Shown piece by piece: positions 1,996-62,286 of a stretch of DNA of 64,000 nucleotides. A program made the translations under genes and the position numbers. The notes beneath the pieces are model-generated. The model did no database searches, was not told the origin of the DNA, and saw only the letters and a program-made list of their open reading frames with translations. Within the stretch, counting starts at the first letter, position 1. Each line of letters opens with the position of its first letter. This DNA is from an uncultured Burkholderiales bacterium (lineage in GTDB: Bacteria > Pseudomonadota > Gammaproteobacteria > Burkholderiales > Burkholderiaceae_C): assembly GCA_903870145.1 (NCBI GenBank), contig CAIQBO010000035.1:62001-126000 (forward strand), written 5' to 3'.

Positions 1996-2041
1996 CACAT
2001 GGAGCCTGACGCAGTGATGTTTATATTTTTAGATGGTTTCA

Positions 2042-3594: not shown

Positions 3595-3703
3595 GATGCC
3601 GTAGGCAAGAAATTTTTGCAGGCTTTTTCTTGATCTGCGTCATATTGGGAGCGTCTTGTTTCACGCAAACTCAAGAGCGGTGAAGGTCAAAAATGGATGT
3701 TTC

Positions 3704-39800: not shown

Positions 39801-39883
39801 CTGTTGGGCGGGTTGGCTTGGCGCAAGGCACAATCGCCCAACGTACTGCTTTGGGGTACGGGCGAACTGCAAAGGTTTTGAAC

Positions 39884-40871: not shown

Positions 40872-40883
40872 ATGTCCGGACAA
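40872..40883. promoter_or_regulatory. GntR-type operator copy A
   Basis: ATGTCCGGACAA, one mismatch from the TTGTCCGGACAA copy at 42333. It covers the position of a -35 box for the TATAGT hexamer at 40901-40906, which would read into the cysteine-synthase-like gene. Confidence 0.6.
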
Positions 40884-40981
40884 GTTGGCGGCGCCTGCTA
40901 TATAGTCTGGCCTTGGCTGCGACTTGCGAAGTTTGACTTGGCGCTTGATTTGCGCAGCCGATTTGAACAACAAGGACCGCC

Positions 40982-42022
40982 ATGCAGATGCAAGATCGTT
41001 CGGGGAGAGCCCTGCGCTTAGAGGGGGTACGACACATGATTGGCCGCACACCCTTGCTGGCTCTGAATTTGCGTTTCCAAGGAAACGCTTGCCGCGTGTT
41101 TGCCAAAGCCGAGTACTTCAATTTGACTGGCAGCATCAAAGACCGGATGGCCTTGCATATTTTGGAGTCTGCCGTTCAAAGTGGTGATCTTGCCCCAGGA
41201 GGAACCATTGTGGAGGCTACTAGCGGCAATACGGGCATTGCCTTTGCGGCATTGGGCGCTGCCATGGGAGAGAAGGTCGTGATTTACATGCCTGATTGGA
41301 TGAGCTCTGAGCGCAAGGCATTGATACAGTCGTATGGTGCGCAAATCCGACTGGTCAGCCAAGAAGAAGGTGGTTTTTTGGGCAGCATTGCCATGACGCA
41401 GAAACTCGCGCAAGAAACGCCATTGGTATTTTTGCCGCGGCAATTTGAAAATGAGGCCAACGTCCAGGCCCACGCCTTGAGCACAGGGCCTGAGTTGTTA
41501 GCGCAGTTGGCAAGTCTAGGGCTGAAACCAGATGCGTTTGTAGCAGGCGTAGGCACAGGGGGAACGGTCATGGGCGTGGCGCAGGCATTGCGAGCAGCAT
41601 GTCCCCGCGTGAAGGTACACCCTTTAGAGCCTGCGGAATCGCCGACGCTTTCAACCGGACACAAAGTTGGGCGGCATCGAATTCAAGGCGTGTCAGATGA
41701 GTTCATTCCTAGCATCTGCAAAATTTCCGATCTGGATGATGTGATTGCAGTGCACGACGGAGATGCAATTTTGATGGCGCAACGTTTGGCACAGGAGCTG
41801 GGATTAGGGGTGGGCATATCTTCGGGTGCCAATTTTTTGGGGGCCTTGCAATTGCTCCAGCGACATGGTTGGAGCAGCACCGTGGCAACGGTTTTTTGCG
41901 ATGACAATAAAAAATACTTATCAACCGATTTGTCGCGGCAAGAGCCCGTGCGCTCAGGGTATCTCAGCGCGCAAGTGGAGCTTGTCAGTTATGAGGCGAT
42001 ACCGGCATCTTCAAACAGGTGA
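40982..42022 (+). CDS. Cysteine synthase/cystathionine beta-synthase family PLP enzyme
   Basis: 346 residues. The PLP-lysine region is [17 protein letters not shown]. The substrate loop is [15 protein letters not shown], and the phosphate cup is [15 protein letters not shown]. The C-terminal [12 protein letters not shown] segment is also family-typical. The fold catalyses beta-replacement of O-acetylserine and similar substrates. Three things separate it from an ordinary housekeeping cysK: its place at the edge of a catabolic island, an operator of the island's GntR type in its promoter, and a C-terminal extension beyond the usual 305-325 residues. The reaction could be sulfur or nitrogen incorporation into a non-standard acceptor. 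Family call firm, substrate unknown. Confidence 0.88.
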
Positions 42023-42061
42023 CAGGCCGGCGCATCCAAGCCCCTCAGTCAAGGCGTCGCA

Positions 42062-42331
42062 ATGAACAATCGCAAAGACATCATGGACGACAAGACCGAT
42101 TTAAACCCACCAGAAACCGCAGAGTGGCGTGGCGCCCCGCGGCCCTTGACTGAGACGCAAGCACCGCAAAGGGCAATTTATATTTTGCACGAATGGGCCC
42201 ATGTGGCACGACATGCCGATGTTGCTTTAAAGTTGCTTTTAATTTCTGAGAATTTGGTGCAGGTAGGGCGGGTTACGGGCTCGCGGCTCGCCGGCGGTGT
42301 GTCGTTGACAAGTTTGCGCTGTGGGCTATAA
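42062..42331 (+). CDS. Doubtful small ORF or gene remnant
   Basis: 89 residues with an ATG and a weak AAGG before it. The first 45 residues (PPETAEWRGAPRPLTETQ) look protein-like, but I recognise no family. The 3' third runs through the strong promoter at 42305-42332, which argues that at least the end is not under coding selection. It may be a remnant or a chance frame. Apart from this and the promoter/operator, the 42023-42408 gap holds nothing that I see. Confidence 0.25.
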   Translation: MNNRKDIMDDKTDLNPPETAEWRGAPRPLTETQAPQRAIYILHEWAHVARHADVALKLLLISENLVQVGRVTGSRLAGGVSLTSLRCGL

Positions 42332-42332
42332 T
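42305..42332 (+). promoter_or_regulatory. Consensus sigma-70 promoter of the acyl-CoA operon
   Basis: TTGACA (42305-42310), 16-base spacer, TATAAT (42327-42332): both hexamers are perfect. The palindrome TTGTCCGGACAA follows directly and covers the predicted transcription start. Confidence 0.88.
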
Positions 42333-42344
42333 TTGTCCGGACAA
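42333..42344. promoter_or_regulatory. GntR-type operator copy B
   Basis: TTGTCCGGACAA, a perfect 12-base palindrome joined to the -10 box. Occupancy would block transcription initiation, which is how repressors of the GntR family usually act. Confidence 0.8.
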
Positions 42345-42408
42345 GTATTGGAAAAATTGCAGCGCCTGGCGAGCCTTTTCCCCTCATGTTTTTGCACAAG
42401 GAGATGTC

Positions 42409-42714
42409 ATGACCACGTTGATCGTTTTATTCAACCTGAAAGATGCAGGCAGTCGTGTGGACTACGAACGATGGGCGCGGGAAGTGGATATGCCCACTGC
42501 AGGGGCGCTGCCCTCGGTGGACAAGTTTGAGGTGCTCAAGGCAGCGGGCTTACTGACAGGCGGCGCGTCGCCGTATGAATACATTGAAATTTTGCGCATC
42601 AACGACATGACACAACTGGGCAAGGACGTGGGAACCACGGCCATGCAAGAAGTCGCAGCGCAATTCCAAGCGTTTGCGGACAATCCAGTGTTCATCTTGA
42701 CGCAGTCGCTGTGA
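42409..42714 (+). CDS. HapK/REDY-like small dimeric alpha-beta barrel protein
   Basis: 101 residues. MTTLIVLFNLKDAG, YERWAREVDMPTAGALPSVDKFEV and YEYIEILRINDM are characteristic of the REDY-like/HapK family of small ferredoxin-fold barrels, related to EthD. Such proteins act as cofactor-free oxygenases, isomerases or accessory proteins in ring catabolism and pigment pathways. AGGAG lies eight bases before the ATG. It is the first gene of a six-gene operon driven by the consensus promoter at 42305. It overlaps the next gene by four bases. Its role in the pathway is unknown. Confidence 0.75.
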   Translation: MTTLIVLFNLKDAGSRVDYERWAREVDMPTAGALPSVDKFEVLKAAGLLTGGASPYEYIEILRINDMTQLGKDVGTTAMQEVAAQFQAFADNPVFILTQSL

Positions 42715-43514
42715 GTCAGTACCCCGAACTCTCAGGCAAGGTGGCCATCGTCACCGGAGCAGGCCGACCTGGCGGCTTGGGCGCTGCCATTGCGCAACGC
42801 TTGGCGCAAGAGGGTGCCAAGGTGGTGGTGGCTGATTTAGACACTGTCCAAGAAATGCATGCGGTTGTTCAAGAAATCATCGATCATGGGGGTCAAGCCA
42901 TGGCGCTGCCCTGCAATATGTTGGACGGCAGCGCAGTGGAAAAATTGGTTGCCGACACGCAGGCAGCCTACGGCGGCGTGGACATCTTGATCAACAACGC
43001 AGGCGTGGGCTATTTGATGAAGCCTATCGTTGAGATGTCACTGGACGAGTGGGACACGGTCTTGGGTGTCAATTTGCGCGGCATGTTTGCAGCCACCCAA
43101 GCAGCGGCCAAACGGTTCATCGCGCAAGGCCGCGGTGGTCGCATTGTCAACATAGCGAGTCAAGCGGCCAAGTCAGGGTTTACGCATGCGTCTGCCTATT
43201 GCGCCTCCAAACACGGCGTGCTGGGTTTGACGCGTGTGGCAGCGATTGAATTGGCGCAGCACCAAGTCACGGTCAATGCGGTATGCCCCAACCATGTCAC
43301 CACGGGTTTGGGTGCTTGGCAAAACGAGTATTTTTCAAAGCTCTTGGGCAAGTCTGTCGAGCAGTATTTGGCGGAGATGCGTGCGCGCATTCCCTTGGGG
43401 CGTGCGGGTTTGACCAGTGACACAGCCAACGCCTGCGCGTTTTTGTGCTCAGACCAAGCGCAATACATCACAGGCGAGGCCATGAATGTCTCTGGCGGTG
43501 AGGAAATGCATTGA
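42711..43514 (+). CDS. Short-chain dehydrogenase/reductase
   Basis: 267 residues from a GTG inside the GTGA overlap with the preceding stop. The Rossmann motif GAGRPGGLGAAIA is a variant of TGxxxGxG. NNAGVG and the catalytic set Ser (IASQAAKSG), YCASK (Tyr and Lys) are all present. NVSGGEEMH ends the protein, as in many 3-oxoacyl reductase-like SDRs. It oxidises a hydroxyl or reduces a ketone with NAD(P). In this operon it could act on a ring alcohol or on a hydroxyacyl intermediate. Confidence 0.9.
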   Translation: MSQYPELSGKVAIVTGAGRPGGLGAAIAQRLAQEGAKVVVADLDTVQEMHAVVQEIIDHGGQAMALPCNMLDGSAVEKLVADTQAAYGGVDILINNAGVGYLMKPIVEMSLDEWDTVLGVNLRGMFAATQAAAKRFIAQGRGGRIVNIASQAAKSGFTHASAYCASKHGVLGLTRVAAIELAQHQVTVNAVCPNHVTTGLGAWQNEYFSKLLGKSVEQYLAEMRARIPLGRAGLTSDTANACAFLCSDQAQYITGEAMNVSGGEEMH

Positions 43515-43515
43515 C

Positions 43516-44403
43516 ATGAACAACGGAAATAATTGGGCATGGCCACACGGCGCCAAGCTCGCGCTGTCTTTGGTGGTCAACGTTGAAGAGGGCGCTGAAT
43601 ACAGCGTAGCCGATGGCGACCCTACGCCAGAGCCCGTGGACGAGTTGGGTGTGACGCTCAAAAAGCCCATTCGAATGCACGGCAATGAATCAAACTACCA
43701 ATACGGTATCAAAGAAGGTGCGCCGCGCGTGCTCGAGTTGCTTGATCGCTACAAGATGCCAGCGACGTGGACCGCAGCTGCCTTGGCCCTGGAGCGCGCA
43801 CCGGGCCTAGCGAAAGCTATTCGAGAAAGAGGCGACGAGACCTGCTCGCACGGGTGGCGTTGGGAGCATCAATTTCGCTTCAACGAGGCCCAAGAAAGAG
43901 AGTTCATTCAAAAAGCAGTACGCAGCATTGAGCACAGCACAGGCACGCGGCCGGTGGGTTGGCTCTCACGCTATTTGCACACCGAGAACACCCGGCGCTT
44001 GTTGCAAGAAGAAGGCTTTTTGTACCACATGGACGACTACAGTGCAGACACGCCATTTTGGGCAGCTGTGAGCGGTTCGGACAAGCCGATGGTGATCGTG
44101 CCATATGCGCTGGACTCTAACGATATGAAGATGTGGCTGTCACCCGCGTTCACACCCGACATGTGGCTGAAGTACGCCTGTGACACTTTGGATGTGCTGC
44201 TGGTGCAAGGCCAAACAGCCAGGCAACCACGTATGATGTCTTTGGGCTTGCATCTGCGCATCATCGGCCGGCCTGGGCGCATTGGGGCGCTAGAAAAGTT
44301 TTTGGCGCATGCCTCACAAGCCCAAGGGGTATGGATCACCACACGCCGGCAGGTGGCCGAGCATTTTGCTGTGGCCGTGCCGCCTTCGAAGGTGGTGGCA
44401 TGA
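43516..44403 (+). CDS. PuuE/cyclic-imide-hydrolase-like polysaccharide deacetylase family protein
   Basis: 295 residues. It has the polysaccharide-deacetylase fold, but with the markers of the PuuE allantoinase and cyclic imide hydrolase branch: LSLVVNVEEGAEYS replaces the usual TFDD motif. ETCSHGWRWEHQ supplies the metal-binding histidine. TGTRPVGWLSRYLHTENTRRLL and GFLYHMDDYSADTPFW follow. This branch opens cyclic amides or imides rather than deacetylating sugars. It lies one base after the SDR stop and overlaps the lyase gene by four bases. A cyclic N-containing substrate or intermediate is therefore a reasonable inference. Confidence 0.83.
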   Translation: MNNGNNWAWPHGAKLALSLVVNVEEGAEYSVADGDPTPEPVDELGVTLKKPIRMHGNESNYQYGIKEGAPRVLELLDRYKMPATWTAAALALERAPGLAKAIRERGDETCSHGWRWEHQFRFNEAQEREFIQKAVRSIEHSTGTRPVGWLSRYLHTENTRRLLQEEGFLYHMDDYSADTPFWAAVSGSDKPMVIVPYALDSNDMKMWLSPAFTPDMWLKYACDTLDVLLVQGQTARQPRMMSLGLHLRIIGRPGRIGALEKFLAHASQAQGVWITTRRQVAEHFAVAVPPSKVVA

Positions 44404-45233
44404 CTTTGCTGGCCAAAGCGCGGTCACTTTTATTTGTTCCTGCCGACCGACCTGAGCGCTATGCAAAGGCGTTGGCAAGTGGTGCCGATGTTGTTTGCAT
44501 TGATTTAGAAGACGCCCTACAGCCGCAAGCGCGCGAGGGGGCGCGCAAAACATTGACAGACTTTTTTAAAAGCCTCAGACCAGCGCACCGATTTGGCGTT
44601 CGCATCAACCATTTAAGCAACTTGGATGGTCTTCGTGATGTGTTGTCGCTGCATGCTGCCGAATGTTCGCCCGCTTTTGTTGTGATGGCCAAAACACAAA
44701 GTGCAGTAGAAATGCAAATGTTGGCGGCTTTACTGCCGGGCGTGCCATTGATCGCTTTGATTGAAAGCGTCAAGGGGCTTGAAGCAGCCAATGCGATTGC
44801 ACAAGCGCATGCACAAGTCCAGGCACTGATGTTTGGCGGTGCAGATCTGTCAGCGCAACTGGGCTGCGACATGGCATGGGAGCCGTTGCTGCACGCCAGG
44901 TCAAGTTTGGTCATGGCCGCGGCGACCAATGAATTGGCTTTGTTCGATATGCCATGGTTAAACGTTCAAGACCTTCAAGGCGCAGAGCAAGAGGCGGCAC
45001 GTGCAGCAGCACTTGGCTTTTCCGCCAAGGCATTGATTCACCCTTTGCATGTTGCACCGGTGCACGCTGGGTTGGCCCCGACAGCTCAGGCTTTGGCGCA
45101 AGCGCAACGAATCCTTGCGCAAGATGGGGCAAACCAAAGCGCAGCTCAGGGCGTGCTCACAGTAGATGGGCAGATGGTAGACCGGCCTGTGGTTTTGGCG
45201 GCGCAGCGTTTGCTGCGGCGTGCAGGCATTTGA
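44400..45233 (+). CDS. HpcH/HpaI-fold CoA-ester lyase (CitE-like)
   Basis: 277 residues. ARSLLFVPADRPERYAKALASGADVVCIDLEDAL is the signature of citrate lyase beta subunit-like proteins, with ALIESVKGLEAA (Mg-binding glutamate) and MFGGADLSAQLG (aspartate). Single-gene relatives cleave malyl-CoA, methylmalyl-CoA or citramalyl-CoA to acyl-CoA plus glyoxylate or pyruvate. Placed just before a MaoC hydratase and an acyl-CoA dehydrogenase, it probably performs the final C-C cleavage. It overlaps the upstream gene by four bases. Confidence 0.88.
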   Translation: MTLLAKARSLLFVPADRPERYAKALASGADVVCIDLEDALQPQAREGARKTLTDFFKSLRPAHRFGVRINHLSNLDGLRDVLSLHAAECSPAFVVMAKTQSAVEMQMLAALLPGVPLIALIESVKGLEAANAIAQAHAQVQALMFGGADLSAQLGCDMAWEPLLHARSSLVMAAATNELALFDMPWLNVQDLQGAEQEAARAAALGFSAKALIHPLHVAPVHAGLAPTAQALAQAQRILAQDGANQSAAQGVLTVDGQMVDRPVVLAAQRLLRRAGI

Positions 45234-45255
45234 AAATTCACACGAGAAAGAATAT

Positions 45256-45774
45256 ATGGTTCAAAACGTCAAACAAGTCGGCCCCAACCGGTTCCGAGAA
45301 ACTTTTGGGCGGTATTTTGAAGAGTTCACGGTCGGTGATATTTACGAACACCGACCACGCAGAACCATCACTGAAACAGAAAACACCTGGTTCACTTTGC
45401 TGACCATGAACAACCACCCCTTGCACTTTGATGCCGATTACGCCAAAGCCTCAGAGTTTGGACGTTGCTTGGTCTCCAGTCCGTTCACGGTGGCCTTGAT
45501 CGTTGGCATGAGCGTGACCGATGTGTCTCAAAAAGCCATTGCCAATTTAGGTTGGAGCGATATCAAGATGACGCACCCGGTCTTTGCCGGCGACACCTTG
45601 AGTGCTGAGTCTGAAGTGCTGGCCAAACGCGACTCTGGGTCTAGACCGACGGCCGGCATCGTGACCGTTAAGACGACGGGATTTAACCAAGACGGGGCGA
45701 TCGTTTGCAGTTTCACACGCATGATCTTGATTCCGCGTCTAGGCCACAGTGTTGAAGACAAGGCGGACTATTGA
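45256..45774 (+). CDS. MaoC-type acyl-CoA hydratase (mesaconyl/itaconyl-CoA hydratase-like)
   Basis: 172 residues, a hot-dog fold hydratase. The active-site stretch LLTMNNHPLHFDADYAKASEFGRCLVSSPFTVALIVGMSV resembles mesaconyl-CoA and itaconyl-CoA hydratases more than (R)-specific enoyl-CoA hydratases, which have GDxNPIH. It would hydrate a branched or dicarboxylic enoyl-CoA to the hydroxyacyl-CoA that the CitE-like lyase cleaves. The ATG at 45256 has AGAAAG before it; an upstream GTG is possible. The stop overlaps the next ATG. Confidence 0.85.
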   Translation: MVQNVKQVGPNRFRETFGRYFEEFTVGDIYEHRPRRTITETENTWFTLLTMNNHPLHFDADYAKASEFGRCLVSSPFTVALIVGMSVTDVSQKAIANLGWSDIKMTHPVFAGDTLSAESEVLAKRDSGSRPTAGIVTVKTTGFNQDGAIVCSFTRMILIPRLGHSVEDKADY

Positions 45775-46928
45775 TGTCAAGCTGGAACATGGAGGACGAA
45801 CGCGCGATTCTGGACAGCATCGACGTTTGGGTTGAGAAAGAGGTGCGCCCTATTGCCAAGCGCTTTGACCACGCCGATGAGTACCCGCATGACTTGGTGG
45901 AGCAGATGAAAGCACTCGGTCTGTTTGGCGCAACCATCAGTCAAGATTATGGCGGCCTGGGCCTCTCGGCCGGAACCTACGCCAAGATTGTGATTCGAGT
46001 TGCAAGCGCATGGATGGCGCCCACCGGGATATTCAATTCGCACTTGATCATGGCCACAGCCATAGAACGCTTTGGAACTGACAAACAAAAAAACGAATAC
46101 CTGCCGCGCATGGCCCGAGGAGAGTTTCGCGGCGGCATTGGTTTGACAGAGCCCAACGCAGGAACCGACCTGCAGGCCATTCGCACCCAAGCGCAACGCG
46201 ATGGCGATCATTACGTCGTCAACGGTGCGAAGACGTGGATCACCAACAGCGGACAAGGCGACGGCTTGCTGCTGCTGGTCAAAACAGACCCGCAAGCACA
46301 GCCGCGCCACAAAGGCATGAGTTTGTTCATTGCTGAAAAGGCGGAAGGCTTCATCGTTGCCAAGAAGATGGAGAAACTTGGTTACAAAGCCATTGACACC
46401 TGTGAGCTGACTTTTGACAACTACCGCGTACCGGCTGAAAACTTGCTGGGCGGTGAGGAGGGCAAAGGCTTTGCACAAATTGCTGGGGGCTTGGAGTTGG
46501 GGCGCATCAACGTGGCCGCGCGAGGCTGTGGCATTGCTCAAGGGGCATTGGAGTTAGCGCTGCGCTACGCGCAAGAGCGCAGCACTTTTGGCAAGCCCAT
46601 TTGCGAGCACCAGGCCATACAGCTGAAGTTGGCTGAGATGGCCACACAGGTAGCGGCCGCCAAGTTGCTGATCGAACAAGCAGCGATCAAATACGATGCG
46701 GGCGAACGTTGTGATTTGGAGGCCGCGATGGCCAAGTATTTTGGCTCAGAAGCCGGCGTGTTTTGCGCCAATGAGGCAATGCGAATTTTTGGCGGCTACA
46801 GCTACAGCACCGAATATGAAATCGAGCGCTACTACCGCGATGCCATGCTGATGTGCATTGGAGAGGGCACCAACGAAGTGCTGCGCACCATCATTGCCAA
46901 GCAGTTGATTGCGCGCAACCCCGCTTAA
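45774..46928 (+). CDS. Acyl-CoA dehydrogenase
   Basis: 384 residues, usual for the family. FAD- and substrate-binding motifs include GGIGLTEPNAGTDLQAIRT, YVVNGAKTWITNSGQGD, TFGKPICEHQAIQLKLAEMA and FGGYSYSTEYEIERYYRDA with GEGTNEVLR. It introduces a double bond in an acyl-CoA, passing electrons to ETF. The sequence is close to the short-chain/glutaryl/methylsuccinyl-type group, but the exact substrate cannot be fixed. The gene is last in the operon; a short palindromic hairpin (GGCTGCGCAGCC, 46933-46944) follows and may end it together with the convergent gene. Confidence 0.92.
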   Translation: MSSWNMEDERAILDSIDVWVEKEVRPIAKRFDHADEYPHDLVEQMKALGLFGATISQDYGGLGLSAGTYAKIVIRVASAWMAPTGIFNSHLIMATAIERFGTDKQKNEYLPRMARGEFRGGIGLTEPNAGTDLQAIRTQAQRDGDHYVVNGAKTWITNSGQGDGLLLLVKTDPQAQPRHKGMSLFIAEKAEGFIVAKKMEKLGYKAIDTCELTFDNYRVPAENLLGGEEGKGFAQIAGGLELGRINVAARGCGIAQGALELALRYAQERSTFGKPICEHQAIQLKLAEMATQVAAAKLLIEQAAIKYDAGERCDLEAAMAKYFGSEAGVFCANEAMRIFGGYSYSTEYEIERYYRDAMLMCIGEGTNEVLRTIIAKQLIARNPA

Positions 46929-46947
46929 ATGAGGCTGCGCAGCCGCT

Positions 46948-47949
46948 TTAGTTGTCTAGGAGAACAACCGATTTTCCTTGATTCTCACCGCGCATCAATC
47001 GACAAAAAGCAGCAGGAACCTGGTCCAATCCGTGCTGGATGTCTTCACGAAAATGAAGTTGCCCTGCTTGGTAAAATGCACCCAACTCTTTGGTCATTTG
47101 TCGCATGTGCTGCCAATGGTCGTACACCACCAAGCCGCGGACAGTGGCACGCGAACGAATCAGTAAACCCGCATTCAATTGCGAGGGGCTTGCGCCGTTG
47201 TATTGCGCCATCAAGCCACACAGAACAACGCGGGCATGAAGCGCCAAATTTTCAATGGCCGCATCGAGTACTTCACCGCCAACGTTGTCAAAATATACAT
47301 CAATCCCCTTGGGGCACAGTTGCTTCAAGGCGCTTGTCAACGGCGTATTTTTGTAATCAATGCAGTCGTTGAAACCGGCCACACGTTTGACCCAATCACA
47401 TTTTTCGGGGCCGCCGGCAATCCCGATCACACGGCAACCCGCAATCCGGGCGAGTTGACCCACAGTGGCGCCAACTGCGCCGCTGGCTGCAGAGACCACC
47501 AAAGTTTCGTTGGGTTGAGCTTGGCATAGGAGGTTAAATCCGACCCATGCCGTCAAGCCTGGCATGCCCAGGCCGCCCAGCGCCAGAGAGCTTGGGTTAA
47601 TTTGAGGATCCACCCGGCGGCACTGCGGGATCGACTGAGCATCCAATACCGCATGGGTTCTCCAGCCGCACGGAGCGACCCACTTTTCTCCTACAACCAT
47701 GCGCAAGTCATGTGACTCGATCACCTCCACCAGGCCTTCACCTCGGACCAAGTCGCCTGGGTGGATGGAGGCGCTCAGGTGTTTGCCTGCCATCGCACTG
47801 CGCAGATAAGGGTCCATCGACAGGGCGTGAACACGAACCAAAACTTCGCCAGATTGAGGGCCGGACAGGTGGGCATGGCCCATGGCAAAGTCACTCACTT
47901 CGGGAGCGCCTTGAGGGGTGTGCGTGAGGGTAATTTGTTGAATTTGCAT
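46948..47949 (-). CDS. Zinc-independent MDR family NADP-dependent oxidoreductase
   Basis: 333 residues. It has the medium-chain reductase fold without zinc ligands. The nucleotide motif is VSAASGAVGATVGQLARIAGCRVIGIAGG, and DVYFDNVGGEVLDAAI is typical of leukotriene B4 12-hydroxydehydrogenase/curcumin reductase-like enzymes. LGGLGMPGLTAWVGF supports this. It reduces a conjugated C=C next to a carbonyl with NADPH. It is last in the six-gene TRAP operon that begins at 53419, 45 bases after the hydrolase gene. Confidence 0.88.
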   Translation of the reverse strand: MQIQQITLTHTPQGAPEVSDFAMGHAHLSGPQSGEVLVRVHALSMDPYLRSAMAGKHLSASIHPGDLVRGEGLVEVIESHDLRMVVGEKWVAPCGWRTHAVLDAQSIPQCRRVDPQINPSSLALGGLGMPGLTAWVGFNLLCQAQPNETLVVSAASGAVGATVGQLARIAGCRVIGIAGGPEKCDWVKRVAGFNDCIDYKNTPLTSALKQLCPKGIDVYFDNVGGEVLDAAIENLALHARVVLCGLMAQYNGASPSQLNAGLLIRSRATVRGLVVYDHWQHMRQMTKELGAFYQAGQLHFREDIQHGLDQVPAAFCRLMRGENQGKSVVLLDN

Positions 47950-47994
47950 GGGGCTTTGCGCAAGGCAGTTGTTCAGGTCGACAGGGCCACAACG

Positions 47995-48870: not shown

Positions 48871-50141
48871 TTCAACAAGGCGGTAGAAAGGCCTGGCCAC
48901 AAGATGACCGTCAACAACCCGACCCCGAGCAAAACAATGAATGGAACAACAGCCTTGCAGCATTCAGCAAACGAGGTTTTGAAGGCCACAGAGGCCACGA
49001 TCAAATTCAGCCCCATGGGAGGGGTCAGGTAACCAATTTCCAAATTAACCAACATGATCATGGCAAAGTGAATCGGATCCATTCCCATGGCGCTGGCCAT
49101 GGGGGCAAGCAGTGGCGCCAAGATCAAAATGGCAGAGCCAATGTCAATCAAGCAACCTGCAATCAGAAGCAGCACATTAACGGCAATTAAAAAGCCGATC
49201 TTGCTGCTGACTTGGCTGGCCATCCATTGCGCCGCCATTTCCGGCACATGCTTTTCACCCAAAAAAACATTGATGCTCACGGCCATGATCAACATGGGGA
49301 AGAGAGCCCCAGACATTTTGATGGTGTCTTGAGATATCTGAAAAAGTTTGGCCAGTGTCAATTGACGATGCACCAGCATGTCGATCAAAACCGCATAGAA
49401 AAGAGCCACCACAGCCGACTCGGTGGCGGTGAAGTAGCCGCTGTAGATGCCACCAATGATGATCACGGGCACCATCATGGCGAACACGCCACTCCAAAGC
49501 GAGGCGAGTATTTCTGCCCTATCCCATGCCGCAGATTGCCGCAAATGGCGGTTTTTATAGACCGCATAGACGCCGAGTAGAAAAGCCAAAAACAATCCTG
49601 GAAGCACCCCGGCTTTGAACAAGTCGGTGATGGAGACGCCGGTCATGATGCCGTACAAAATCATAGGGATTGACGGCGGGATGATGATGCCCAAAGTGCC
49701 GGCAGCGCAGAGCAAACCCAAAGAGAATCGATGGTCGTAGCCCGCCTTCACCATGGCTGGATAAAGCACACCACCGACAGCCAGCATCGTGACTGTGGAC
49801 GAGCCTGAAATGGCTGCAAAAAGCGAACACGACAAAACCGCCGCCAATGCCAAGCCGCCAGGGATTGGCGCTGTCAGCGCAGCCATCACGCGCACCAGTC
49901 GAGATGCAATGCTGCCATTGGCCATCACGTTGCCTGCCAGAACGTACAATGGGATGGCTAGAAAATTCTCATTGCGTGCAATTTGCCAAGCATCAATGGC
50001 TGTGTAGCCAATGGCGCCATTGCTGTAGAAGTAGTAAAGCCAAGCTGAGGACAGGCCCAACACGACGATCATGTTTTGCCGCAGCCACAGCAGCATGGGA
50101 ACCATCACGGCAAGTCCCACCAGGGGCCAGATCGAACTCAT
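48867..50141 (-). CDS. TRAP transporter large permease (DctM)
   Basis: 424 residues with about twelve hydrophobic segments. GTLGIIIPPSIPMILYG and the C-terminal NLEIGYLTPPMGLNLIV are the best-known DctM motifs. With the small subunit and binding protein it imports organic anions, using a sodium gradient. It overlaps dctQ upstream and the hydrolase gene downstream by four bases each. Confidence 0.94.
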   Translation of the reverse strand: MSSIWPLVGLAVMVPMLLWLRQNMIVVLGLSSAWLYYFYSNGAIGYTAIDAWQIARNENFLAIPLYVLAGNVMANGSIASRLVRVMAALTAPIPGGLALAAVLSCSLFAAISGSSTVTMLAVGGVLYPAMVKAGYDHRFSLGLLCAAGTLGIIIPPSIPMILYGIMTGVSITDLFKAGVLPGLFLAFLLGVYAVYKNRHLRQSAAWDRAEILASLWSGVFAMMVPVIIIGGIYSGYFTATESAVVALFYAVLIDMLVHRQLTLAKLFQISQDTIKMSGALFPMLIMAVSINVFLGEKHVPEMAAQWMASQVSSKIGFLIAVNVLLLIAGCLIDIGSAILILAPLLAPMASAMGMDPIHFAMIMLVNLEIGYLTPPMGLNLIVASVAFKTSFAECCKAVVPFIVLLGVGLLTVILWPGLSTALLK

Positions 50142-50722
50142 CGGGTGGTGTCAGTTGCGGGTTTGCCAAGGTCGCCGTCGCTTGGGTTGGCGAAGGCTTG
50201 AACTTGAGCTTGCGTTGGCGCATCATTCTCGCCCTGCGCCGGCGCAGGGCGCAGGGCAGGCCAAATGCTGTACATCCAATGACGAAAAACAGCCAGCACA
50301 AAAGCCAGCATCATGAACAGTTGAAAAGGCCAAATTTGCCACTGCAAAACAGGGTCGGTTTCTTGCAACGCAATGCTCTCTTGCATCATTTGCCAGCACA
50401 GAACTGAGGCGCCAGCACAAAACAGAGCAAACCCGATGTCAGTCAATCGATCCCAAAAAGCCTGGAGCGGCGCAGGCACCAAGTTGTCAAAGAACTTGGG
50501 CCGCAGGTGCGAGCCTGCAGCCGAAGCAATACCGATGCCGATGAAAGATAAAAACACATTGGCATAAATGGCAATGGGCGTGGCCCAAATTTTGCCACTG
50601 CCAAGTGCTTCACGATTCAAAATGTCCCAGCCCAAAACCAAAACCATGACCAAAAATGCCAGAGATGTGCAAGCTTGCTCAAATCGCAGCATCAACCGCA
50701 GTGTGATTTGTGCTGTGTTCAT
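50138..50722 (-). CDS. TRAP transporter small permease (DctQ)
   Basis: 194 residues with four hydrophobic segments; GWDILNREALGSGKIWATPIAIYANVFLSFIGIGIA fits the DctQ family. The C-terminal tail (about 30 residues) is hydrophilic and Pro/Asn/Gln-rich. It bridges the periplasmic binding protein and the large permease. The stop overlaps the DctM start. Confidence 0.88.
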   Translation of the reverse strand: MNTAQITLRLMLRFEQACTSLAFLVMVLVLGWDILNREALGSGKIWATPIAIYANVFLSFIGIGIASAAGSHLRPKFFDNLVPAPLQAFWDRLTDIGFALFCAGASVLCWQMMQESIALQETDPVLQWQIWPFQLFMMLAFVLAVFRHWMYSIWPALRPAPAQGENDAPTQAQVQAFANPSDGDLGKPATDTTR

Positions 50723-50745
50723 GGTGGGGCCTATTCAAGCCAGGT

Positions 50746-51738
50746 TCATTTGGTTGCAGCGATGTCTTTGGCCAGATCGTCGTAGATCTTTTTCGCATCG
50801 GCCCCCAAACCACTCAAGATCTCTTCACTGGCTTTTTTGCCTGCTGCTTGCCACTGTGCCATCTCAGAAGGCGTGGGCCGGTAGATGCTCAGGCCTTTGC
50901 TTGCGGCCGTGGTCAAAAATTGGTCGTTACCGGCGCGCGTGGCAGCGGCTTGATCGCGCGTGCTCCAGCCATTTTGAACAGCACTCTTTTGCTTGGCGTT
51001 GAGTTTGTCAAACCACTCTTTGTTGCACAAGATCGTGCCGGAGTCAAAGGCGTGGCCCGTCAACGTGTAGTGCGCGGCCGCTTTGGCGATCATGGCGCTG
51101 TAGATCACAAGGCCTGCCTCGCCGCCTTTGATGAGGCCAGTTTGCAAGCCGGGCATGGTCTCGGCAATGGGCAAAACAACGGGCTCTGCGCCGGTGGATT
51201 TGACCCAGGCTTGCGATGCGCGTGCCTGTGTGGCGCGCAGCTTGACGCCTTTGACATCGGCAGGTGATTTGATCGGCTGCACGCCATAGGTGTGCGTGAA
51301 ACCCACCTCCACAAATTGAAGCAATTCCACGCCTTTGGCTGAAAAGAGTTTTCGGTAGGTCTCGGTCAGACCTTTGTCATAGGCGTAATCAACTTGTTTG
51401 AAATTAGAAAAAAGGTAAGGCAGTTGCAGCACGCCAACTTCAGGCAATATGGTTGAAGAGCCCTGCAAAGAAACGCCAGCACAGGCAATACGGCCGCGGC
51501 GCAAATTCGACAGCAAGTTGCCCTCATTGGGATCGCTGGTGTTCAAATCAACCTTGATGGTTGCGCCACTGTCGCGTTCAACATTTGTTTTGAATTTTTG
51601 CCAAAACTCAAGGAATACGCTACCAGGGGGCGCGAAGGCGCCAGTTTGTAAAACGATAGGCTCTTGTGCACTTACCGTAGAGACAAGCGTGGCGGCCGAC
51701 AGCGCAATGAAAGTCAGCAGTGTGTTTTTGTGTTTCAT
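50746..51738 (-). CDS. TRAP transporter substrate-binding protein (DctP)
   Basis: 330 residues from MKHKNTLLTFIALSAATL, a signal peptide cut after VSAQ. DctP features are ADVKGVKLRATQARASQAWVKSTGAEPVVLP, where the arginine salt-bridges the carboxylate of the ligand. AGLVIYSAMIA and the rest of the closing helix region follow. The ligand is therefore expected to be a carboxylic acid. It lies second in the operon, after the FAD oxidase, 50 bases from it. Confidence 0.93.
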   Translation of the reverse strand: MKHKNTLLTFIALSAATLVSTVSAQEPIVLQTGAFAPPGSVFLEFWQKFKTNVERDSGATIKVDLNTSDPNEGNLLSNLRRGRIACAGVSLQGSSTILPEVGVLQLPYLFSNFKQVDYAYDKGLTETYRKLFSAKGVELLQFVEVGFTHTYGVQPIKSPADVKGVKLRATQARASQAWVKSTGAEPVVLPIAETMPGLQTGLIKGGEAGLVIYSAMIAKAAAHYTLTGHAFDSGTILCNKEWFDKLNAKQKSAVQNGWSTRDQAAATRAGNDQFLTTAASKGLSIYRPTPSEMAQWQAAGKKASEEILSGLGADAKKIYDDLAKDIAATK

Positions 51739-51787
51739 GGTGGAGCCATTCAAAATGATGGATGTGCGGATTGAAAATCAGTTTGTT

Positions 51788-53419
51788 TCAGGATGAAGCC
51801 GCAATTTCTGACGCATTGGGGCTCCCCGCTGCAAGCCCTAAACTGCCAGGGTTCATCAAACCGTGAGGGTCCAAGGCTTGTTTGAGGGCAAGTACCAACT
51901 GCCGTGTGTTGGGCTGAAGCCGTTGAAGATAAGGATAGGCGCGGCCATGCTGAAAATGAACAGCACCAAACGAGTCTAGGCACTGCGTGACCTCTGTCCA
52001 GAGTTGACTGACCAGGGCATGGGCAGCGGGAGACGGTGGGCGTTTCTGCCAAGCCGCCGTCAGGCTTGTTCCCAGCACATCCACATGGATAGGCAGGATT
52101 TCATCGGGCCAATAAAAGCAGGGCTCGAATAAAAACGCACGGTCTAAATTGGCTGTCAAAGGGGAGTAGACAATGTTGTGCGTTTGCATTTCCTTGGCGT
52201 GCGCTGCAATTAAAGTTTCAATGCTGCGCACCACCTCTTGCGCCTTAGACAGCGGCACGATGCCATGTACGGGCACCCACCGGTCGCCGTTGTAGCCCAG
52301 TACCGAACGCAGGGGCTGAAATGGCTGAGCGCGAAGCACCGTGGGGACGGAGGCGGGTTGGACTACGCCCTGGTGCGCAACAGCGATCTGGGCCACCCGT
52401 GCCAGACGCCCGTCAACATGAGCCTGGCTGTCACCATCCAAGGCCAAGTGGATCGAGTAGGGGTGCACCGCAAGGTACTGCGTGCCCGTCAAGGCCAGAC
52501 TGGCCGCGCTTTTCAGACCCGAGATCAAATCGGGAGCTGCCCGAGTGATTCGACTGAGTGTTTGAAGACCGGTGGCCAGTTTGTTGCCGGTCTGGGCGGA
52601 GTGGACAGCTTTGAATGCATCGATGCCGAAGCACTCTGAGCCCAGGCCTTGGCGCATCAAGTCAATTTGTGCGCCCACCATGTCTGCCAGTGTTGGAAAG
52701 CCAAAGGAGGCATAACCTTGAGCCGCAGGCACAGGAATCAACCTCAGCGTGGCCTGGGCTTTGATGCCCATGGCGCCCGCGTCCCCCAAAAATAAACCCG
52801 TCAAGTCAGGCCCGCCCCAGCGCGCAAAGGGCGATGCCCCCGAGAAGCCCGCACTTCCAGTGTGCAGCAACTCGCCATTGGCAAGCACCACGCTCAAAGA
52901 CAGAACCGATTCGGCGGCGCTGCCGTGTTGCCCTGCGCCAAAGAACATGCTGTTTTGCGACAAGGCGCCACCCACTGTGGCGCGCAAGCCCGACAAGGGG
53001 CCTGCGTAGGGCGTGGTGTAGCCGCTGCCGCTCAGTGCGTCCCGCACTTGTGCCCAAGTGCAACCGGCCTCTAGCGTGATGTACAGGTCGTGGGTGTTGA
53101 CTTCAACAACACGGTTCATGCGCGACAAGTCAATGCACGCATAAGCTTGAGCAGGCAAATAGCCGCCGGTGTAGGACATGCCCCCGCCACGCGGCGCCAA
53201 TGCCAAGCCGGCGCAGTGGATGCTGGCGCTGGCGCTGGCCAAGGAGGCCGAACTGCGCGGGTACAAGATGAACTGTGGCAGCTGCGGAGACTGGAAAAAA
53301 ATGTCGTGTGCGGCCAACTGCAGGGCGGCAACATCCTCAACGACGGCGTCAGTTCCACAAACAAGCCGCAGCGCATGGGGCAAGTCTTTGAGATGCTCGG
53401 TTTTCGGAATGATTGCCAT
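51788..53419 (-). CDS. FAD-linked oxidase of the vanillyl-alcohol oxidase type
   Basis: 543 residues. The PCMH-type FAD domain shows APRGGGMSYTGGYLPAQAYACIDLSRMNRVVEV, LEAGCTWAQVRDALSGSGYTTPYAGPLSGLRATVGGALSQ and an AMGIKAQATLRLIP segment. The C-terminal end PHGLMNPGSLGL matches VAO/p-cresol-methylhydroxylase/D-lactate dehydrogenase enzymes. It likely oxidises a hydroxyl or activated C-H of the imported compound. It is the first gene of the TRAP operon, following an operator/promoter pair at 53464-53508. No cytochrome partner is next to it. Confidence 0.85.
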   Translation of the reverse strand: MAIIPKTEHLKDLPHALRLVCGTDAVVEDVAALQLAAHDIFFQSPQLPQFILYPRSSASLASASASIHCAGLALAPRGGGMSYTGGYLPAQAYACIDLSRMNRVVEVNTHDLYITLEAGCTWAQVRDALSGSGYTTPYAGPLSGLRATVGGALSQNSMFFGAGQHGSAAESVLSLSVVLANGELLHTGSAGFSGASPFARWGGPDLTGLFLGDAGAMGIKAQATLRLIPVPAAQGYASFGFPTLADMVGAQIDLMRQGLGSECFGIDAFKAVHSAQTGNKLATGLQTLSRITRAAPDLISGLKSAASLALTGTQYLAVHPYSIHLALDGDSQAHVDGRLARVAQIAVAHQGVVQPASVPTVLRAQPFQPLRSVLGYNGDRWVPVHGIVPLSKAQEVVRSIETLIAAHAKEMQTHNIVYSPLTANLDRAFLFEPCFYWPDEILPIHVDVLGTSLTAAWQKRPPSPAAHALVSQLWTEVTQCLDSFGAVHFQHGRAYPYLQRLQPNTRQLVLALKQALDPHGLMNPGSLGLAAGSPNASEIAASS

Positions 53420-53463
53420 CAATAAGGCCGCTTTGAGAATTGGAGGGCGCTGGGGTTCTAGAT

Positions 53464-53475
53464 TTGTCCGTACAA
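53464..53475. promoter_or_regulatory. GntR-type operator copy C
   Basis: TTGTCCGTACAA, which reads TTGTACGGACAA on the minus strand. It lies four bases after the -10 box of the TRAP-operon promoter, as copy B lies directly after its -10 box. Confidence 0.78.
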
Positions 53476-53479
53476 CTTT

Positions 53480-53508
53480 ATGCTAAAGAGCCAAGGCAAT
53501 CTTGTCAA
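53480..53508 (-). promoter_or_regulatory. Sigma-70 promoter of the FAD oxidase-TRAP operon
   Basis: On the minus strand, TTGACA (53508-53503), 17 bases, TAGCAT (53485-53480), then the GntR-type operator. The -35 box is perfect and the -10 box has four of six consensus bases. The rest of the 53423-53581 gap contains no gene that I see. Confidence 0.72.
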
Positions 53509-53581
53509 GAAAAATCGCACGGGAAAAATGAAAAACACAGTCGCACGTAACACTGCGCTATGCGGCTTTTCGCAGGAAACG

Positions 53582-54328
53582 CTAGCTCGATTCGTGTTTG
53601 AGAATGGTGGTGTAGCGAAACATGTCAGATCGGTGCAGCGATATCGCTACGGCAATCAGTTTTCCCTTGCGGTCGTAGTAGGTACGGCTGGCGCGCAGGG
53701 AAGGAGAATTTTTGGTGACATTCAGCTGAGCCGCAGTGACTGCATCCAGCGCGACAGCCTCGAAAGTTTGTTCAATCCGCCCAAGCGTGCGCGAATCAAG
53801 CAAAGCAAGCAACACGGGTAAAGCGCTGGAGGGGTTGAGAAGTTTTTCGCGTCGTCCAGGCGTCTGGGGGGGGAAGTACAAATGTGTCAGCGCAAAGGGG
53901 CGGCCAGCCTCGCCGTGCTCGCCTCGCTCGCTGCGCAAAGCTTGTAATTCGATGCAGAAAGTTCCGCTTGCGCAGCCCAAGCGGGCGGCCATGACTTGAC
54001 TGACGGGGGTTTCATTGGCTTTCAGCAGTTGCAAACGGCTTTCCTTGCCGTATTGATGCAAGTCTTCAATGCTGTCGACAACTTGCCGATAACGCACAGG
54101 AGGTTTATCTGAGATGACCACCGAGCCCGAGCCTTGACGGCGCACAATCAGGCCGCTTTCTTCAAGAATTCTCAAGCCTTCACGCACCGTGTGTCGACTG
54201 ACTTTCAGTTGTTCGCACAACTCAGCTTCTGCAGGCAAGGCAGAGCCAACCGAAAATTTCTTTTTGACGATGTCGTTGATCAGTGCGTCAGCAATGGCGC
54301 GGTAACGAGGGATTTTGGGCAGGGTCAC
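53582..54328 (-). CDS. GntR family (HutC/UTRA subgroup) transcriptional regulator
   Basis: 248 residues from a GTG giving a start close to TLPKIPRYRAIADALINDIV. The winged helix-turn-helix reads LPAEAELCEQLKVSRHTVREGLRILEESGLIVRRQGSGSVV. The C-terminal part ending near the tyrosine-rich SRTYYDRKGKLIAVAISLHRSDMFRYT is the UTRA ligand-binding domain. The gene lies third after DUF1838 and the CoA-transferase. Four TTGTCCGKACAA-type palindromes at the island promoters are its likely sites, including one upstream of its own operon (autoregulation). The true start could be an in-frame codon further up inside the preceding gene. Confidence 0.85.
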   Translation of the reverse strand: MTLPKIPRYRAIADALINDIVKKKFSVGSALPAEAELCEQLKVSRHTVREGLRILEESGLIVRRQGSGSVVISDKPPVRYRQVVDSIEDLHQYGKESRLQLLKANETPVSQVMAARLGCASGTFCIELQALRSERGEHGEAGRPFALTHLYFPPQTPGRREKLLNPSSALPVLLALLDSRTLGRIEQTFEAVALDAVTAAQLNVTKNSPSLRASRTYYDRKGKLIAVAISLHRSDMFRYTTILKHESS

Positions 54329-54347
54329 GCTGGAACAGTTCAAAAAA

Positions 54348-55652
54348 TCAGAGGTTTCTGCGAAGTGTACGCCACGCTTGGTGTAAGTGTTCACGGTGCT
54401 CAGGGGCGGCAATGGCAATCAGTGCAAGGGCGCGATCATCAAGTCCCAAGTGCCGCAGGTGTGCCGCACCGTGCTCTGTGACCACCGTGTCCACATCTGA
54501 GCGCGACATGCTGACGGCTGAGGGATCTAACATCGGGACAATGCGCGACTGCTGCGCGCGCCCGGCCAAAGCAGTGGCCGCAACGATGCCCATTCCTCCT
54601 TGGCTGGCACGTGCGCCACGCGTTAAGTCAACCAAACCGCCGATGCCGCTGACTTGCCGCCCTTTCAAGGTGGCGCAATTGACTTGTCCCAAAAGATCAA
54701 TCTCCAGAGCAGAGTTGATCGCCTTCAAATGCGGCAGGCCAGCCAGAGTGGCGTAGTCATGGGTATGGCTGACTGGGGAGAACTGCACCAGGCAAGGATC
54801 TGAAACCGCTTGGTACAGCGCCGCGCTTCCGATTGCCATGCCTGTGCAAACGGGGGGTGAATGCACTGAGGACAAAAGCAAACTGCCGCTTTCGATCAAG
54901 CCCAACAATGCATCTGAGACCATGCCCGAATGCACCTTCAAATGCCGATGTGATGTGAGCGCGCCCATCACTTCGGCCTGCAAACGGCCCAAGCCAAATT
55001 GCAGGGTGTCGCCATCGCTTACAAGTTGTGCCACTTGCTTTGCCACTGCGCTCAGCGCAGGGTTGCCGGTGCCTGGGGCAATGCTCAATGGCGGCAGGGC
55101 CGCCTGGGCCCAGGCGTTGATGCGTGAGACAGGAACAAAGGGGCCACGAGTGCGCGGCAGCATGGGGTTCATGTGCGCTAGAACGATCGCGTCTGAATGA
55201 ATCGCTTGCATGACCGAAGGTGTGAAATCGGCGGCTAAAGACAAGCTGCAATGACCCTGATCATCGGGACTGGCCAAATGTAGCATCACAATATCAAAGC
55301 GGCCTGGTTGACTGAGGTAGCGAGCGATCTCGCTGTAGTGCAAGGGCAAGTAGTCCAGCGCACCACGCTGCCAACTGGCATGAAATTCGGGAGATAAAAA
55401 GAAAGAGGTGGCTTTGGCTTGAGGGTGCAAAGCTGAAGGATCAAAGCGGTTCACGCCCGGAATCCAAGCGCCACAAAATGAAACGCCTGCTGCAACCTCT
55501 GGCTGCTCAAGTAACCATTGTTGAAACAACGGAGACTGACCTGCGCAGCCCGGCCAGTAGACGCTCGCGCCAGGGCGCAGGAAATGACACAGGTCTTGGG
55601 GGCTTAATTGCTTGGGCATGAAGCTGTCGAATGAAAGAGAGACAAGCGGCAT
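54348..55652 (-). CDS. Acetyl-CoA hydrolase/4-hydroxybutyrate CoA-transferase family protein
   Basis: 434 residues from the ATG giving MPLVSLSFDSFM. INSALEIDLLGQVNCATL contains the expected catalytic glutamate, followed by VSGIGGLVDLTRGARASQGGMGIVA and VTEHGAAHLRHLGLDDRALALI. These are typical of class I CoA-transferases such as 4-hydroxybutyrate- and acetate-linked forms. It probably loads CoA onto a pathway acid. A second ATG (MPKQLSPQ) 33 bases downstream is possible. It lies 19 bases upstream of the regulator gene on the same strand. Confidence 0.88.
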   Translation of the reverse strand: MPLVSLSFDSFMPKQLSPQDLCHFLRPGASVYWPGCAGQSPLFQQWLLEQPEVAAGVSFCGAWIPGVNRFDPSALHPQAKATSFFLSPEFHASWQRGALDYLPLHYSEIARYLSQPGRFDIVMLHLASPDDQGHCSLSLAADFTPSVMQAIHSDAIVLAHMNPMLPRTRGPFVPVSRINAWAQAALPPLSIAPGTGNPALSAVAKQVAQLVSDGDTLQFGLGRLQAEVMGALTSHRHLKVHSGMVSDALLGLIESGSLLLSSVHSPPVCTGMAIGSAALYQAVSDPCLVQFSPVSHTHDYATLAGLPHLKAINSALEIDLLGQVNCATLKGRQVSGIGGLVDLTRGARASQGGMGIVAATALAGRAQQSRIVPMLDPSAVSMSRSDVDTVVTEHGAAHLRHLGLDDRALALIAIAAPEHREHLHQAWRTLRRNL

Positions 55653-55677
55653 GGGTCCGCGGTCTTCACAGAAGATC

Positions 55678-56553
55678 TCACTTTTTGTTGCTTTGTTGCT
55701 TTTTGTAGTAAGTCCAGCTGGTTTCGTTCGGACTTGTAAAAGTTGTGGGTGAGCTTTGGTATTGTGGATAGTGCGCGCGCGTGTACTCTCGCAGATCCAG
55801 GGGCAACTCGTCGAAGCTGGAAAACTTTTTACCATGCCCGCTGTAGAGCAGGTAGCCAGGGCGGGTGCCCATTTTCATCCAAGGCAACCACGGACCGGTG
55901 CGAGACCATGAGTAGGTAATCGGAACACTGCTCGTTTGGGGATCGTTCAGGTCAGAGGCTTTGGCGAAAAAAGTGAAATGCTCAGACGCCAAATAGGTCG
56001 GCCCGGTGGACTCAGCAGGAAATTCGGCAGGCAGCAGTGCGTTGGGGTAGGCCAGCGGAATATCAAGCCTTAAAAAAATGTCGTTGCCGCTTTGCATGAA
56101 TGGAAAGCGACCCACCTCGCCTGGCTTGGTGGCGGAGTAGCGAGAGTTGACGGGGTCGTTGGCGACTTGCACAACGGTGTTGGTTTCTTGTGTGAAGGGG
56201 TTAACCCATTTGCTCAGGACTTCCCCGCTGGCCAGGTCTTTGTAATAAGCCACCTCCCGCGTGATGAACTGCGCACTGCCGTCTTCGAGCTTGACAAAGC
56301 GGCCCACGTTAAAGCCGTCGAGCCGCATGATAGGGCGTGGCCGCTCACCGGGCACCACGGCGAACAGGGTGACCCACCAGTTGGCAAAGGCCTCGCGCCC
56401 GTCGTTGCTCGCACGCATGCGCATGAACGAGTCTAACTGTCCGGTAGCTGAGCTCAAGTCCAAGGCTGCGGCATTGCCGGAAAAGCCCAGTGTGCCAGCC
56501 CAAAAGCCAGCCAGCATGGCCCAAAGAGCGATGTGTCGAGGATGAAGTGACAT
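55678..56553 (-). CDS. DUF1838 family exported protein
   Basis: 291 residues. A signal peptide (WAMLAGFWAGTLGFSGNAAA) leads into GQLDSFMRMRASNDGREAFANWWVTLFAVVPGERPRPIMRLDGFN, which I recognise as DUF1838. Many aromatics (WSRTGPWLPWMKMGTRPGYLLYSG) and a lysine-rich C-terminus are seen. The family often occurs beside catabolic genes and has no established activity; a role in periplasmic handling of an aromatic or steroid-like substrate is only a guess. AGGAA precedes the ATG. It is the first gene of the operon with the CoA-transferase and regulator, divergent from the methyltransferase operon across operator copy D. Confidence 0.82.
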   Translation of the reverse strand: MSLHPRHIALWAMLAGFWAGTLGFSGNAAALDLSSATGQLDSFMRMRASNDGREAFANWWVTLFAVVPGERPRPIMRLDGFNVGRFVKLEDGSAQFITREVAYYKDLASGEVLSKWVNPFTQETNTVVQVANDPVNSRYSATKPGEVGRFPFMQSGNDIFLRLDIPLAYPNALLPAEFPAESTGPTYLASEHFTFFAKASDLNDPQTSSVPITYSWSRTGPWLPWMKMGTRPGYLLYSGHGKKFSSFDELPLDLREYTRAHYPQYQSSPTTFTSPNETSWTYYKKQQSNKK

Positions 56554-56617
56554 GTGGTTTCCTGATTCAAGGCGGGACCTGGAAGGAGGCAGCTGATCCA
56601 GATCAAAAAAGTTAAAG

Positions 56618-56629
56618 TTGTCCGTACAA
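56618..56629. promoter_or_regulatory. GntR-type operator copy D
   Basis: TTGTCCGTACAA, identical to copy C. It lies in the 152-base gap between divergent DUF1838 and methyltransferase genes, so one bound repressor could control both operons, including the regulator gene itself. I do not see a consensus promoter in this gap. Confidence 0.78.
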
Positions 56630-56705
56630 CTGAAAACGAACCGATGTTATCATCAATTCATGCCCCGCTCTTGAGGGCTAGAGACATATGGAAGGAACTT
56701 TTCCA

Positions 56706-60831: not shown

Positions 60832-60838
60832 GGCAGTG

Positions 60839-62233: not shown

Positions 62234-62286
62234 CTGGGATCGGTTTGAAGGGTGGGCTTCGGGAGTGCTTTGCAAGTTGGCCGGTG

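Follow-up and report, generated by a model that had tools for sequence, protein, structure and literature searches.

A predicted HutC-type GntR regulon with a palindromic operator in an accessory catabolic island of an uncultured Burkholderiales bacterium

Regulators of the HutC subfamily (DasR, YvoA/NagR, PhnF and HutC) combine a GntR winged helix-turn-helix (HTH) domain with a UTRA domain. According to the part of PMC4494728 that was covered, palindromes with four bases between GT and AC are the usual HutC-type operators, with known exceptions, and the consensus of the subfamily is NyGTMTAKACNy, with TA at the centre. We analyzed a stretch of 64,000 nucleotides (the window; C35:62001-126000) from the genome of an uncultured Burkholderiales bacterium (G000; 2.89 Mb, 66 contigs), in which a regulator of this type is encoded inside a catabolic gene island. 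As in the described systems, the island regulator possesses the GntR and UTRA domains, the four-base interval is kept at all six core sites (predicted operators reading GT-CCGK-AC), and a site lies at the promoter of the regulator's own operon within a local catabolic regulon. In contrast to the TA of GTMTAKAC, which is a consensus and not a defining feature, every one of the six core sites has CG at its centre (CCGG or CCGT). The predicted island regulon is a new example of the known HutC-type local regulon.

Based on the sequence analysis, the GntR encoded in the island very probably binds and represses the island promoters until a pathway compound binds to it. The operator of GntR would be a 12-bp palindrome, (W)TGTCCGKACAA, through which the protein would repress roughly eight to ten transcription units at their promoters, its own operon included. 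Binding of a pathway substrate or intermediate to the UTRA domain would then lift the repression. The regulon would thereby form a self-contained accessory catabolic island for uptake, hydrolysis by enzyme families acting on rings and amides, CoA activation and CoA-ester breakdown. We infer GntR binding, repression and derepression by a pathway compound; the repression and the release by a ligand are taken from the regulator family. The original prediction of a local GntR/HutC regulon that defines a catabolic island is supported by the confinement of the sites, by co-occurrence in 399 genomes and by conserved sites at homologous promoters.

The gntR gene is located at 53582-54418 on the minus strand, and its real start is probably downstream of the listed TTG. 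In the product, an N-terminal GntR winged HTH domain (PF00392; 69 bits against a cut-off of 27) and a C-terminal UTRA domain (PF07702; 58 bits against 23.8) were detected, and DasR and YvoA were the best solved relatives. Thus, from its domains and its likeness to DasR and YvoA, the regulator is of the HutC type. It reached no known equivalog cut-off among the 25 of 27 NCBIfam matches listed. Identification as PhnF (96.3 of 156.8 bits) or as HutC (94.5 of 220 bits) was rejected, both scores being below the curated cut-offs. The presumed operon consists of a DUF1838 gene (55678-56553, first gene), a CoA-transferase gene (AcetylCoA_hyd_C; 54348-55835, homology from residue 74, real start probably near 55616) and gntR as the last gene, all on the minus strand, and is headed by operator D. 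It had been predicted that a HutC-type GntR is encoded inside the island and that its operon carries a site; both statements are correct.

The four palindromes predicted in the window were found exactly at the given coordinates and with the given letters (no strand is assigned to them). Operator A (ATGTCCGGACAA, 40872-40883) lies 98 bp before the gene of a PALP-fold enzyme and overlaps a candidate -35 box. Operator B (TTGTCCGGACAA, 42333-42344) lies ahead of the HapK operon, at the same location in two relatives, G366 and G037. Operator C (TTGTCCGTACAA, 53464-53475) begins 4 bp after the promoter TTGACA-17-TAGCAT of the FAD oxidase operon on the minus strand, and operator D (TTGTCCGTACAA, 56618-56629) is placed between the divergent DUF1838-CoA-transferase-gntR operon and the methyltransferase gene. 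Within the window alone, the loose pattern TTGTNCGNACAA, with one mismatch allowed, matched six times where 2.93 matches were expected; six matches were reached in 7 of 100 shuffles of the window, which is weak evidence.

A genome-wide motif search, as the original prediction proposed, was decisive for the strict pattern. TTGTCCGKACAA occurs at five places in 2.89 Mb (104333, 115464, 118618, 129280 and 140063), all on C35 between 104333 and 140074, and the reversed control gave none. TGTCCGKACAA occurs at six places, namely the five strict ones and 102873 (operator A); all fall inside one 37-kb stretch, C35:102873-140074, and the reversed control gave two forward matches and one reverse match. 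The sites at 129280 and 140063 are located past the window end and the other four inside the window. Weaker copies were found at C35:140096 (TTGTCCATACAA) and, in degraded form, at C35:130875 (ACGTCCGGACAA). The loose pattern was rejected as an operator definition, for exact matches also occur inside gntR and on contigs C3, C36 and C49 (one listed place each). The match in the gntR coding region (54209-54220, no strand; TTGTTCGCACAA) fits the loose pattern only and was judged to be a chance match. Only the CCGK core is island-specific. Thus, the predicted confinement to island promoters holds genome-wide for the core and fails for the search pattern TTGTNCGNACAA; likewise, the predicted set of four consists of real sites, but the count was too low, with at least six sites, two of them outside the window.

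We compared 399 genomes of the family. A search for the GntR, in which at most six first-look candidates were scored per genome, gave close homologues (E<=1e-40) in three of them (G000, G366 and G037), which represent three genera. These genomes contain five, eight and four strict sites, respectively. At least one strict place was detected in 36 of the 399 genomes, and only these three have at least four; every other genome has three or fewer, and G087, of the same genus as G000 and with no close homologue, has one. The 396 genomes without a close homologue gave a background of 40 strict places in 33 genomes. At a mean genome size of 4.4 Mb, which we assumed, about 0.0008 strict sites are expected per 36 kb, and the Poisson probability of at least five is about 3e-18; this is a rough model, since some background matches are clustered, as in a CRISPR-like array of G106. 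In that array (G106:C3:140605-141513; L043:8397-9514), TTGTCCGGAC stands within repeats of about 70 bp per unit and mimics the operator in motif searches. Four genomes of genus g90 (G329, G090, G192 and G266) have two to three strict TTGTCCGKACAA places each and no close GntR homologue.

The islands of the two relatives were compared over 60 kb each (tblastn, E<=1e-20). Two related loci from a separate locus search, whose contigs equal those of G366 and G037 in length, were left out of the genome count. Of 37 named island genes in G000, 25 match in G366, 29 in G037 and 22 in both, in a different order. Counting strict, W-variant and one-mismatch forms, seven, eight and seven sites were listed in the G000, G366 and G037 stretches, and 19 of these lie in gaps beside named genes; the site at G037:24231 lies inside the doubtful 5' part of an open reading frame (ORF). 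The HapK operon, the CoA-transferase-gntR operon, the methyltransferase gene and the TonB receptor gene have a site in all three islands, although some of these sites are W-variants or carry one mismatch. FAD oxidase, DUF1838 and the hyp238/memb238 region have one in two islands; in G366, the FAD oxidase gene is downstream of memb238. The ECH/VOC pair has a site in both relatives (with one mismatch in G037), and G000 keeps the degraded copy at C35:130875. When the near-palindromic 12-mers of the three islands were counted by an unsupervised procedure, TTGTACGGACAA (eight) and TTGTCCGGACAA (seven) ranked at the top, followed by a count of six. Two further operators, 19 bp apart, were found in G366 (C6:98278-98308; L042:8279-8309) near the start of a second, unlinked TonB receptor gene. 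This pair is inside the long receptor ORF and ahead of the plug domain, and is probably ahead of the true start; the gene is likely a distant member of the same regulon.

Promoters were scanned for the best candidate -10 and -35 boxes, with no shuffled control. At four promoters, the operator begins 0 to 4 bp past the best candidate -10. The gap was 0 at the HapK promoter (TTGACA-16-TATAAT, 42305-42332, plus strand), where the -10 abuts operator B, and also at the TonB promoter (TGGACA-16-TATTAT); it was 2 at the hyp238 promoter (TTGCAA-18-TATACT) and 4 at the FAD oxidase promoter (TTGACA-17-TAGCAT). The predicted placement of two sites directly after or within four bases of a -10 box is therefore correct for 42333 and 53464. 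A second operator copy at the TonB promoter, 33 bp off, overlaps the -35. Since the operator follows the -10 by 0 to 4 bp at four promoters, the position favours steric repression, whereas the geometry is less clear at A and D.

The pair of regulator and operator was also searched for across the order. GntR homologues at E<=1e-35 were found in 8 of 399 genomes of the order, G000 included. In four g200 genomes, whose GntR is 35-38% identical, ATGTCCGGACAA stands just upstream of gntR, as one copy in G671 and as two copies 38 bp apart in the other three. On plasmid pTM2 of Tistrella mobilis (Alphaproteobacteria; GntR 28-29% identical), ATGTCCGGACAA is placed between CoA-transferase-gntR and MmgE-ligase-amidase. 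Apart from Tistrella (SRYTVRE), all aligned proteins with intact sites, six in number, share the HTH stretch SRHT.RE; G366 was left out of this alignment.

Several observations weigh against the regulon described above. In G409 (L040), which has a GntR homologue, no site was detected within one mismatch in 20 kb, and its GntR also has SRHT.RE. G532 (L041) has a homologue with SRHTARD and one-mismatch copies only, near PuuE and gntR, and no site was detected in the 3.7-kb homologue locus of G449. With sites in g200 and Tistrella and none intact in these three genomes, the regulator-operator pair extends beyond one island and is not universal among homologues. The sphingomonad plasmids pJE1 (Sphingomonas sp. 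JE1), pSA1 and KACC 22771 (L045, L046 and L048; Novosphingobium included) have a similar gene set, and no site was detected on them with one mismatch allowed. Annotations exist for L045 only, and its annotated GntR did not match the island GntR at tblastn E<=1e-15. At operator D, the promoter scan found no good sigma-70 promoter on either strand, and no target gene could be assigned to the G366 sites 131933 and 149400. Operator A is the weakest of the four: its support comes from a single genome, the PALP gene was not found in the islands of the two relatives, and at a 62% homologue in G794, a scan of 6 kb with two mismatches allowed gave no site. Its ATG variant also occurs at gntR promoters of other genomes.

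The sphingomonad clusters, with neither a close GntR match nor a site, and G409, with a homologue and no site, would fit a scheme in which another regulator encoded elsewhere recognizes the palindrome and the gntR gene is a passenger. We consider this very unlikely, as a close GntR homologue and at least four sites coincide across the 399 genomes, three islands, four g200 genomes and Tistrella have a site in the promoter region of gntR, and HutC-type operators are usually GT-N4-AC palindromes with even spacing according to the cited part of PMC4494728. GntR might also bind the sites and act at some of them as an activator or a dual regulator. Operators A and D overlap a candidate -35, and at the memb238 gene the operator sits in the promoter spacer, which would suit such a role; on the other hand, the start of the site 0 to 4 bp after the -10 at four promoters is a position that would block the polymerase, and we regard activation as improbable. 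Finally, the array in G106 shows that motif matches can belong to a repeat. An origin of the island palindromes as copies of a repeat or mobile element was nevertheless rejected and has a negligible probability: they have only about 12 bp in common, their flanks differ, and they are found at homologous promoters in spite of shuffled gene orders. The analysis thus predicts the operator, the regulator and the regulon of a catabolic island and supplies sister islands in which the prediction can be tested. The repressor and operator would be a candidate biosensor, and a compound that releases the protein from TTGTCCGGACAA would point to the pathway substrate.

The island itself, an accessory insertion, covers about 38 kb (C35:102.85-141.2 kb), from 40.85 kb in the window to about 15.2 kb beyond the window end. 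It is flanked by an SMP-30 lactonase gene (window 39818-40846) on the left and a GlcF gene (C35:142443-143699) on the right. Each flank gene was present in 19 of the 20 genus genomes searched, G000 among them; in G790, neither was found at E<=1e-60. Among the 18 other genomes with both genes, 16 have them on one contig at a distance of 1243-2936 bp, and G787 and G800 have them on different contigs. The distance in G000 is 39,599 bp. From 39.6 kb here against 1.24-2.94 kb in the 16 relatives, about 38 kb was gained here or lost in the relatives. On the left, the alignment to three empty sites ends within a few bases of the lactonase stop codon; on the right, it resumes inside the gene that follows the cupin gene in two of the three. 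No integrase was found among the 37 named island genes.

Under operator A, the PALP-fold enzyme (40982-42022, plus strand) is cysteine-synthase-like, below curated cut-offs. Operon B begins with the gene of a HapK/RedY-like protein (42409-42714, plus), followed by SDR, PuuE-family, CitE/RipC-like lyase, MaoC/RipB-like hydratase and acyl-CoA dehydrogenase genes (42711-46928, plus). Operon C encodes the FAD oxidase, a TRAP transporter (DctP-DctQ-DctM), an alpha/beta hydrolase and a zinc-type reductase (46948-53422, minus). Beyond operator D are a SAM methyltransferase family protein and its small partner hyp131 (56688-58318, plus), and then CaiB, amidase, AMP-binding ligase, MmgE/PrpD 1 and the 3' end of MmgE/PrpD 2 (58337-64000, minus). 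The genes from CaiB to MmgE/PrpD are the lower part of a presumed operon that starts outside the window at C35:129247, just below the operator at C35:129280. The original prediction of at least five transcription units was an undercount; by gene layout, the regulon has roughly eight to ten, with at least six sites, and extends 14 kb past the window. In the island as a whole, uptake is represented by a TonB receptor, the TRAP system and an MFS transporter, and the enzymes include the FAD oxidase, a PuuE-family protein, an amidase, a CN-hydrolase, two MmgE/PrpD proteins and an AMP ligase. The CoA genes comprise CaiB, another CoA-transferase, MaoC, a CitE-like protein and an acyl-CoA dehydrogenase. 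The islands of the relatives add two PuuE-family proteins, an isochorismatase, an aconitase-type hydratase with a small-subunit partner, an HMGL lyase, another CaiB and an amine oxidase.

A CoA-transferase, a MaoC hydratase and a CitE-like lyase also occur together in itaconate degradation (RipABC or Ict-Ich-Ccl), and RipB and RipC were the best NCBIfam matches of the island hydratase and lyase. The itaconate pathway was rejected, as the scores were under the curated cut-offs (RipB, 236.6 of 340 bits; RipC, 239.2 of 375 bits). The island differs from itaconate clusters in its extra PuuE-family, amidase, MmgE/PrpD, AMP ligase and methyltransferase genes. PuuE allantoinase was likewise rejected (TIGR03212, 241.2 of 424.6 bits, below the equivalog cut-off). 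The sister gene set of the three sphingomonad plasmids comprises HapK, SDR, methyltransferase with the small partner, MmgE/PrpD, FAD oxidase and a LeuD-like gene on all three, a cupin gene on two, and LeuC, HMGL, CaiB, isochorismatase and a pair of PuuE-like genes on one. They differ from the island in having no operator within one mismatch, and the GntR annotated on pJE1 is not a close relative. No function of these clusters was described in the literature searched, which consisted of listings and the beginnings of abstracts, with most subscription journals outside its coverage.

The island enzymes suggest imides or substituted maleates as the substrate, conceivably derived from tetrapyrroles. 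The enzyme set can be read as opening cyclic imides or amides to (substituted) maleates, which would then be broken down; this reading draws in part on known chemistry, such as that of imidases and half-amidases. Maleamate amidases have the isochorismatase fold, dimethylmaleate hydratase belongs to the aconitase family, maleimides are oxidation products of tetrapyrroles, and HapK is a protein of the prodigiosin cluster. A further, rather unlikely reading is that the island genes serve a so far undescribed catabolism of linear tetrapyrroles (phycobilins and other bilins, or degradation products of chlorophyll or heme) and that GntR senses a maleate- or bilin-like compound. The TonB receptor, together with a CpeT-like carrier, would import these tetrapyrroles, which would be cleaved to substituted maleimides, and imidase- and half-amidase-like enzymes would open the maleimides to dialkylmaleates; hydration and cleavage of the latter, in part as CoA esters, would lead to central metabolites. 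Should the substrate prove to be a bilin or maleimide, the island would open a genetic approach to the way in which photosynthetic pigments may be recycled by bacteria. The pointers to this pathway are the CpeT-domain protein, the HapK/RedY-like and PuuE-family proteins, and the aconitase-type hydratase, isochorismatase and HMGL-type lyase of the relatives. No such pathway was described in the same literature listings and abstract beginnings, and neither CpeT nor CpcT was mentioned in the covered part of PMC10151467.

A CpeT/CpcT domain (PF06206; 66.8 bits, cut-off 21) was detected in L008:4530-5567, adjoining the TonB receptor gene. CpeT-like homologues are present in G037 and G671, and a profile of three homologues matched CpcT (4o4o) with E 1.1e-6; the AlphaFold model from three sequences, with a pLDDT of 38.8, gave no usable structure and adds to the weakness of the pigment hint. 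PF06206 was found in 2 of the 399 family genomes, the other being G302, where it is beside an esterase gene (3.5 kb seen). The pigment hint is weakened by the G037 homologue, which alone gave no PF06206 match, and by G366, where a stretch of 60 kb gave no CpeT homologue at tblastn E<=1e-20. In view of these two genomes and the esterase context in G302, CpeT was rejected as a sure bilin marker, and the CpeT-domain and HapK-like proteins together hint weakly at a pyrrole pigment. HapK, too, was rejected as a marker: of 329 family genomes searched, four have it, and in two of these (G258 and G296) there is no close GntR homologue; G366, whose island has a HapK homologue, is absent among these matches and was probably outside the draw of 329 genomes.

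Within the window, the island part has a slightly lower GC content (0.558 vs 0.571). Outside the island, positions 1-4000 of the window have a GC content of 0.49, against 0.53-0.60 in the other 4-kb blocks.

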